Assembly: GCA_947624745.1 (NCBI GenBank) | Contig: CANQLR010000017.1 | Location: 1-51,715, forward strand | From: an uncultured Clostridia bacterium | Lineage (GTDB): Bacteria; Bacillota; Clostridia; Oscillospirales; Ruminococcaceae | Length of the DNA: 51,715 nt | Direction of reading: 5' to 3' | In this document: in pieces, positions 13,447-50,605 of the stretch | How the letters are laid out: each line of letters starts with the position of its first letter | Numbering within the stretch: the stretch's first letter is position 1 | Notes under the pieces: generated by a model | What the model was told of the DNA's origin: nothing | The model's database searches: none | What the model saw: only the letters and a program-made list of their open reading frames with translations | Position numbers and translations under genes: made by a program

Positions 13447-13544
13447 GGCCGGAGGGGCGGGCGGCGGCTCCGCCGCCGCCCGGCTGCCGCGCGGAGCGCG
13501 GCAGCCGCTTCGGACCCGCAGGGTCCGAAGCGGCCCCTCCGGCC
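13447..13544. repeat. Cloverleaf palindrome, copy 1
   Basis: The outer stem 13447-13458 pairs perfectly with 13533-13544 (12 bp). Inside are three perfect hairpins: 13459-13468/13472-13481 (10 bp, loop TCC), 13482-13492/13496-13506 (11 bp, loop GGA) and 13507-13517/13521-13531 (11 bp, loop GCA). Almost no base is left unpaired at the junction. It lies between the HIT gene and the TmrB-like gene. The stem sequences differ from the other three copies but the architecture is the same. Confidence 0.9.
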
Positions 13545-32252: not shown

Positions 32253-32452
32253 GGGGAAGACCCAGCACCCGTGAAGCGGGCGTTGTCCGCCGTCGGGGAG
32301 GATATCGGTTACTTTTTTAAAGGCAGGAAATTTGGCATTTTACATAAACTTTGTAATTTCTGCTACGGCGGGAAGCACGCGGTAGCGTGCTTAGGGCTTC
32401 GCCCCTACTCCCTGCGCCTTATTCAACCTCTATATTGCCCAACCCTGCGCAT

Positions 32453-32519
32453 AAGGTATTCGCTTCGCTCATGCTATTTTAAGCCCCCTCCCCTGCCCCT
32501 CCCCGGTGGGGAGGGGGCG
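32453..32519 (+). repeat. Composite intergenic repeat, unit 1
   Basis: Begins AAGGTATTCGCT, continues with a TTCG-centred hairpin and CTCATGCTATTTTAAG, and ends in the hairpin CCCCTCCCC-GGT-GGGGAGGGG (32497-32519). Matches the unit at 32578-32682. Confidence 0.6.
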
Positions 32520-32577
32520 CTCGTCGGACTTTGCTGAAAAATCGGTAAGTTTGAGCAGACCTCGGGCGAGCCGCAAC

Positions 32578-32682
32578 AAGGTATTCGCTCGCAAGCTCGC
32601 TCATGCTATCTCAAGAGCCCTCCCTCTCCAAAGTCTGTGCAGACTTACAGCCATGCAGCAGTCCCCTCCCGCCGGGAGGGGG
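32578..32682 (+). repeat. Composite intergenic repeat, unit 2
   Basis: Begins AAGGTATTCGCT, shares CTCATGCTAT and TCAAG with unit 1, and ends in CCCCTCCC-GCC-GGGAGGGG (32663-32682). A longer insert separates the two parts compared with unit 1. Confidence 0.6.
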
Positions 32683-32703
32683 CCTATCTTTGCACAAAAC
32701 CGT

Positions 32704-32799
32704 GGGCGAAGCCCCGAGGCGGCAGCTTCGCTGCCGCCTCACCCGCCGTGCTCCGCTCGGCGGATGGCACGCACTCCGTGCGCGCCCGGGGCTTCGCCC
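32704..32799. repeat. Cloverleaf palindrome, copy 2
   Basis: Outer stem GGGCGAAGCCCCG (32704-32716) pairs with 32787-32799 (13 bp). Inside are 32718-32726/32730-32738 (9 bp, loop TTC), 32743-32751/32755-32763 (9 bp with one mismatch, loop TCC) and 32766-32774/32778-32786 (9 bp with one mismatch, loop TCC). Confidence 0.9.
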
Positions 32800-32802
32800 C
32801 CC

Positions 32803-49267: not shown

Positions 49268-49766
49268 ATCGCGATGAAATGTCCTCCCATATATACCGAA
49301 AAAACGGGGAAAAGTTGCATACAAACGTGCAACATTTTGAAAAATTTTTTAAAAAAGCCCCTCGGAGTCCAAATGTACGGACTGTTAAGGGGGTTAAGGG
49401 ACAAAAATTCGGGGCGGATTTTGTGCAGAGTGACGAAAGGGAGTAAGCCGAAAAGGTTTCGCCGGCCTTTCCTCAAAAGGCCGCAGGATTCAAATGCAAG
49501 CTGGTTTTGTTACTGCTCGACTGCCCTCGGCAAAAAGTACCGCCTCGGTTGTCTTGCAGACAAAACCCCGCGTGCATCGGGCAGAGCCCTTTGGTCGCGA
49601 CCGCAGTCGCGAAACTCCCTTACGCGCCAGCGAGCGCAGGACGGGGAGAAAAAATCTGTCCGTCCCCGGGCGAAGCCGCCGCTTCCGGCGGGTTCGCTGC
49701 GCAACGGGCACTAAGGTACGATTCAGCAGTCGACAAGGCGTTGCGTTCTCGTAAGGGGTCTCCCCG

Positions 49767-49876: not shown

Positions 49877-50043
49877 GCGCTGCACTAAGGTGGAGCTATA
49901 ATAGCTTGGGGTGGGAGCTGCGCTATGGGTGGGGGCGAAGCCCTTTGCGCGTTTTCAACGCGCTACTCGCCGCGAGATAAATTTTATACTTTGCAAAATG
50001 TAGAATTTAGTGCCTTTTAAAAGGTTATCACAAAACTTGACGC

Positions 50044-50098
50044 GCGGCGGACAACATTCGCTTCGCAAATGTGGGGGCTTCGCCCTGGTCACCGCCGC
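50044..50098. repeat. Two-hairpin palindrome with outer stem
   Basis: GCGGCGG (50044-50050) pairs with CCGCCGC (50092-50098) around ACATTcGC-TTC-GCaAATGT and GGGC-TTC-GCCC. Resembles the cloverleaf family with one arm fewer. Confidence 0.6.
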
Positions 50099-50190
50099 TA
50101 CACCCTTTTTGTAGCGTGCTCCCGCTTTCCTGCCCCTACCTATTCTCGCCCGGCCTTCCTGCCTCCCCGCAGCAAAACGCAGTCCCCATG

Positions 50191-50281
50191 TGGCGAAGCC
50201 CGAGGCGGCAGCGGAGCTGCCGCCGTGTCCGACCCGCTTGCGGGTCGGACGTGAGCCGAAGGCTCACACGGGGCTTCGCCA
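50191..50281. repeat. Cloverleaf palindrome, copy 3
   Basis: Outer stem TGGCGAAGCCC (50191-50201) pairs with 50271-50281 (11 bp). Hairpins: 50204-50212/50216-50224 (9 bp, loop GGA), 50227-50237/50240-50250 (11 bp, loop TT), 50251-50257/50261-50267 (7 bp, loop GAA). All perfect. Confidence 0.92.
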
Positions 50282-50322
50282 TGCGGGGGCTGCACTTTGG
50301 TGCGGGAGGCGCGTGGGTGCGG

Positions 50323-50416
50323 GGGCGAAGCCCCGGGTGCGCGCGGAGCGCGCACCCGCCCGCCGTGCTCCGCACGGCGGGTAAGCGGCAGCGAAGCTGC
50401 CGCAGGGGCTTCGCCC
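50323..50416. repeat. Cloverleaf palindrome, copy 4 (opposite orientation)
   Basis: Outer stem GGGCGAAGCCCC (50323-50334) pairs with 50405-50416 (12 bp). Hairpins: 50335-50344/50348-50357 (10 bp, loop GGA), 50359-50368/50372-50381 (10 bp, loop TCC), 50385-50392/50396-50403 (8 bp, loop GAA). It reads as roughly the reverse complement of copy 2 in arm order and sequence. Confidence 0.92.
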
Positions 50417-50605
50417 ACAGGCAAGGTGCGACCCCACCCCCACCACACCCCCAACGAGCCTTATTCGGTCAATTGCCCTAAGCTCGTTGTTGATTTCCCG
50501 CCATAAATCGGGCCATATATCCCGCAAAGTCTTATTCGCGCATACACGCAGTGGCGCAAAAGCAGGGCTTTGCCTCTCCTTTTTTTACCTTACCCCCTTT
50601 TTACC

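Follow-up and report, generated by a model that had tools for sequence, protein, structure and literature searches.

Analysis of a 51,715-nucleotide stretch of DNA from an uncultured Clostridia bacterium, hereafter the window, revealed more than had been reported earlier: four cloverleaf-like palindromic units together with two longer relatives (Table 1).

Table 1. Cloverleaf units and related forms in the window.
Feature	Position	Strand	Description
Cloverleaf unit 1	50191-50281	+	Arms GGCGAAGCC (50192-50200) and GGCTTCGCC (50272-50280); three hairpins
Spacer between units 1 and 2	50282-50322	+	41 bp; resembles the tail motif GCGCGGGGTCTGCACTTTGCTGCGGTGAGGCAG by eye
Cloverleaf unit 2	50323-50416	.	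Hairpin order opposite to unit 1
Cloverleaf copy	32704-32799	.	83% identity to the reverse complement of unit 2
Cloverleaf with different arms	13447-13544	.	Arms GGCCGGAGGGGC and GCCCCTCCGGCC
Decayed long form	~32255-32403	.	Right arm GGCTTCGCC intact; left arm degenerate, GGAAGACCC
Long form	~49934-50084	.	Arms GGCGAAGCC and GGCTTCGCC; two outer hairpins; middle hairpin with AT-rich body

The four cloverleaves of the original prediction were borne out, each with an outer stem of 12-13 bp enclosing three hairpins. All four gave z values of -8.2 to -10.4 against dinucleotide shuffles, and none of 200 shuffles was equally stable. Loops of 2-3 nt had been predicted and were found overall, except in one hairpin of unit 1 with a loop of 4 nt; the apices of this unit on the + strand are GGA, CTTG and GAA. 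The best alignment of the units at 50192 and 50324 is inverted, consistent with the two oppositely oriented copies described earlier, and the predicted likeness of unit 2 to the reverse complement of the copy at 32704 was recovered as an 83% match to the other strand of 32704-32801. The unit at 13447 had no second copy at E 1e-6 within the 445 kb sampled. The decayed long form was detected because it is homologous to other long forms. With a strict three-hairpin scan, five shuffled windows had no match; the scan is insensitive, finding the 50191/50323 pair in the real window and missing the units at 32704 and 13447. The first local-fold scan was far too permissive (146-164 matches in shuffled windows) and was discarded.

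Other dispersed repeats lie beside these units. The region between the decayed long form and the 32704 unit (32404-32705) is represented by 111 BLAST pieces in the sample, and much of a 560-bp composite here recurs in the own genome. Another repeat, at 49441-49670, is represented by 27 BLAST pieces, and a 44-base part of it occurs at up to 98% identity in the relative G007.

A total of 154 exact arm-pair matches were found in the own genome (reversed control, 0), and the 226-bp pair at 50191-50416 gave 98 BLAST matches there. The covariance model proposed earlier, built from 55 copies, returned at least 148 matches, some of them both strands of one place, a count covering 150 scored of 2568 candidates. 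Detailed analysis used 71 stretches of this genome, most of them picked because they hold matches, amounting to 445,083 bases including the window (about 17% of the 2.57-Mb assembly). Among 265 arm pairs folded in this sample (up to two mismatches per arm), 214 were three-branched, 27 two-branched, 22 without branches and two four-branched. The exact arms GGCGAAGCC/GGCTTCGCC folded with exactly three hairpins in 130 of 130 cases and pairs with one mismatch in 43 of 45, while pairs with three or four mismatches were mostly not three-branched. Filtering for three branches, an outer stem of at least 7 bp, an energy not weaker than -50 kcal/mol and no overlap with a better unit left 194 units; the same filter left none in one shuffled copy of the sample, and shuffling of the interior retained three branches in only 14 of the 194. 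Exact arm words fell within cloverleaf, half or long forms in 466 of 513 occurrences. An arm-agnostic scan found the arm word in 93 of 106 three-hairpin matches; judged by eye, the other 13 have this arm too, their stem being shorter. Terminal inverted repeats, a MITE trait, are therefore present, the 13447 unit being the exception in its arms. A few reduced forms were seen, such as a single-hairpin form at L015:2105.

Units are about 85-98 bp long and long forms about 150 bp. The latter (65 of 135-165 bp) share arms and outer hairpins with the shorter units; their middle hairpin has an AT-rich body. Among 582 apices, 391 were GNA/TNC triloops, 93 were CTTG/CAAG and 98 were other. GNA/TNC made up 332 of 386 triloop hairpins within units against 105 of 242 outside, a background that is not clean since it contains long forms and remnants. 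Loops of one unit lay on the same strand in 304 cases against 99, an agreement to which shared descent could add. The tail motif was detected next to 75 of the 194 units; of the 66 that have it on one side and also have a GNA strand, 59 carry it 3' of that strand, and no tail was detected in 107 of 175 units with a GNA strand. According to an extract of PMC4686876, GNA loops closed by at least two G-C pairs form extra-stable, nuclease-resistant DNA mini-hairpins; the example it gives, GCGAAGC, occurs in the arm. In G010 units with a different middle arm base (GGCGNAGCC), that base was paired in all seven listed. GNA apices are not universal, occurring in none of six loops in the Ruminococcaceae MAG RUG14213. 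Energy models barely separated the strands (112 of 175 under DNA parameters, with a like result for RNA), and no association of the GNA strand with GC skew or gene strand was seen, so replication-strand polarity was rejected.

Twenty-two motif matches in the sample belong to a second repeat, which is at least about 100 bp long and ends in GCTTGCGACGACG; an arm word lies no more than about 45 bp from 12 of them. This repeat often looks lodged in a cloverleaf hairpin apex, as if targeting hairpin tips (for example at L034 382, L192 3886, L210 4686, L227 2021 and L228 1592).

Covariation of the stems with pairing kept, as claimed earlier from four copies, was confirmed. Across 22 aligned units 97.9% of cells pair and both sides change at 15 pairs, giving 51 double-change cells against 10.2 in shuffles, a value reached in none of 500; a slid-partner control gave 0-9. 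Further pair types alone were not above shuffles (71 of 500 reach the observed value), and the outer stem hardly varies in this alignment. Comparison of nearest relatives revealed that doubles rise with the distance between units: at 97% identity or more there were 24 one-sided changes against a single double, and at 88-93% there were 77-78 doubles and 57-58 newly broken pairs. Their loops were the same in 345 cases, flipped in 24 and otherwise changed in 154. The compensated changes and loop flips could be explained without a function if mutation and repair, rather than transposition or selection, kept the shape, template switching inside the palindrome copying changes between arms and gene conversion homogenising copies. 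We consider this doubtful. The predominance of one-sided changes among the closest units speaks against it, and it leaves unexplained the three-hairpin rule, the conserved arms and the spread to new sites, though it would agree with the common flanks that many near-identical copies may have.

Near-identical copies do occur in different flanks. Of 114 unit pairs at least 93% identical, both flanks fell below 0.55 identity in six, one flank did so in 46 and neither in 62 (unrelated flanks average 0.50, with a 95th percentile of 0.63); the last group may reflect copying of larger segments. In G007 the two genes that border the 13447 unit have no such unit between them, and in the other relatives read at this locus the next gene differs. 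No unit was found at 16 loci of relatives matching the genes beside 50191. The search for empty sites suggested earlier gave 43 spanning matches of joined flanks, many confounded by adjacent repeats, and none of nine loci viewed was clean; the best candidate retains one arm, as a deletion would also leave it. Adjacent repeats of at least 3 bp flanked four of 192 units, about the chance level for a target-site duplication. Five genomes retain one unit (L204:1779-1866; G000:C1:24778-24865) at a common site upstream of a response-regulator gene, which indicates that some copies are old; this unit may have acquired a use. By eye, it also lies upstream of promoter-like sequence.

Presence of the family is lineage-specific within the genus. 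The arm pattern was present in 16 of 30 same-genus relatives and absent in 14; three-hairpin units with different stem letters were found in 14 of the 30. Matches in G002 and G008 were judged by eye not to be cloverleaves. Exact arm-pair counts ranged from 0 to 154 in the genus (137 in G018, 73 in G020 and 25 in G010). The pattern was found in none of five relatives from other genera of the family; four of 24 at the order level had one match each, by eye not cloverleaves; and with longer arms the own genome alone matched out of 391 sampled from the class. Folding covered 80 of the 102 pattern loci and two further loci; three branches were seen in 89 of 90 arm pairs from Clostridia, one of these 89 (in CANQXS) looking like chance, against two of 20 from other phyla. 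Roseomonas and other-phylum matches were accordingly ruled out as family members; one Kiritimatiellae unit is also three-branched. Named carriers among the matches listed were mostly 'Lapin' Clostridia MAGs, whose name suggests rabbit gut, one Oscillospiraceae MAG and RUG14213, whose copies have AT-rich stems.

The RAYT/IS200 link put forward in the original prediction was not supported. The transposase search took in one family, Y1_Tnp (PF01797), which was present in eight of 31 genus genomes, with only broken remnants in the own genome and no match in G003, G005, G010 and G020, which carry 15-73 copies. Broken Y1 transposase remnants lie at G000:C14:2928-3259. Such a transposase may have been lost in the past from repeat-bearing genomes. 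No three-branched unit lay beside the RAYT gene in the four loci read (L243-L246) of 19 PF01797 matches. Candidate autonomous forms in the fetched stretches comprised seven arm pairs 283-3974 bp apart; ORFs were searched for two of these, of which one encodes a nucleotidyl transferase and the other matched no family. No form carrying its own gene was recognised in these stretches. Only two tRNAs in the whole window exceeded the Rfam 15 gathering score, and the one Rfam 15 match at 50100-50500 reached 17.4 bits against a gathering score of 80. The 226-bp pair had no blastn match in plasmids or phages, and viral contigs gave a single, two-branched arm-pair match. As the original prediction supposed, no described family of this form was found in the open-access PMC literature. 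None of the outcomes named earlier as speaking against the family (only four copies, a match to a known family, no compensatory changes) occurred.

The units could also be read as a conventional MITE, in which a double-strand-cutting (DDE) transposase would have the arms as its terminal inverted repeats and the inner hairpins would be incidental. Arms common to short and long forms and the different flanks around near-identical copies agree with this. Nevertheless we regard it as quite improbable: a free interior would not retain three covarying hairpins, target duplication is not above chance, and no gene-carrying form was recognised in the fetched stretches.

Analysis of gene context found the units to be mostly intergenic, 17 of 194 overlapping ORFs predicted by a hexamer-scored gene call; at least one of these overlaps (32705) is an ORF start placed too far upstream. 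This call replaced a first one with spurious ORFs across GC-rich repeats (155 of 194 overlaps). Units lay between tandem genes in 70 cases, convergent genes in 54, divergent genes in 34 and at a contig or stretch edge in 19. An RNA element, whose folded transcript would end, process or stabilise mRNAs, would suit the intergenic position, the very stable RNA folds, the slight enrichment between convergent genes (54 of 158 units, compared with 34 of 131 long gaps) and the copy kept in five genomes upstream of promoter-like sequence and the response-regulator gene. However, the GNA strand in tandem contexts was coding in 34 cases and template in 37, so the terminator or stability role suggested earlier gained little support; the units between divergent genes and a copy number that varies so widely within one genus also argue against it, and we find this explanation improbable.

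Overall, the original prediction gained support for a structured family that has many copies, covaries and is probably mobile; the RAYT/IS200 partner was not supported, and the RNA terminator role found little support. We favour, with a probability of about 0.55, the reading that each unit is a copy of a mobile but non-autonomous repeat, moved as folded DNA by a putative trans-acting enzyme. The inverted arms GGCGAAGCC/GGCTTCGCC would bound a unit with three hairpins inside, which would be moved as DNA while folded, either as a folded single strand or as an extruded four-way-junction cruciform. The enzyme whose existence we infer would act in trans and read the arms and the shape, not the inner letters. 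Copying would continue only for copies still able to fold, and through this selective step the inner stems would drift by compensated changes. The arm-pair counts, the three-hairpin rule, the covariation, the near-identical copies with unrelated flanks and the absence of the 13447 unit in G007 were counted in favour of this reading; the GNA/TNC apices, loop strand agreement, tail polarity and the paired GGCGNAGCC base were counted for folding as DNA. Against the reading we counted target duplication at chance, the want of an identified autonomous form or a clean empty site, similar flanks in 62 of the 114 pairs, the recurring 560-bp composite and the units with undetected tail (107 of 175), as well as the absence of GNA in RUG14213, the slight energy difference between strands and the missing link to GC skew or gene strand. 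More tentatively, the family may be a shape-encoded mobile element, in which a four-way DNA junction with C(GNA)G mini-hairpin apices would be recognised by a putative structure-specific enzyme; arms and fold would then be preserved from species to species, and the inner sequence could vary freely.

The family supplies natural copies by the hundred whose letters drift while the four-way fold and apex type persist. With them one can test whether DNA shape can be the cue by which repeats in bacteria are recognised and moved, and search a gut clade that has received little study for a mobilising enzyme specific to structure. Comparison with known systems revealed partial likeness to each. The AAV-type inverted terminal repeat also has an outer stem around small inner palindromes; unlike the cloverleaf, it has two of these and lies at the ends of a linear viral genome. 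REP/REPIN sequences with RAYT (TnpA-REP) are likewise many short dispersed palindromes, and extracts of PMC8266576 and PMC3733652 present them as possible non-autonomous elements that are processed in the form of folded single strands of DNA; however, REP/REPIN is a single palindrome where the cloverleaf has three hairpins inside an outer stem, and no intact Y1 transposase was found in the own genome. The bacterial MITEs Correia/NEMIS, ERIC and RUP, as presented in part of PMC2229807, resemble the family in length (about 100-200 bp), inverted ends and repetition between genes; they are listed there as long stem-loops with target duplications, whereas the cloverleaf is a four-way junction in which target duplication was not found. 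Caulobacter CIR repeats, described in the same part of PMC2229807, share the presence of more than one arm but have two arms and a linker with a GANTC motif, without a closing outer stem. The organelle palindromic repeats (LIMP) treated in an extract of PMC4524435 are likewise dispersed palindromes, for which cruciform or RNA roles have been proposed; in contrast to the cloverleaves, they are single palindromes of an algal mitochondrion.
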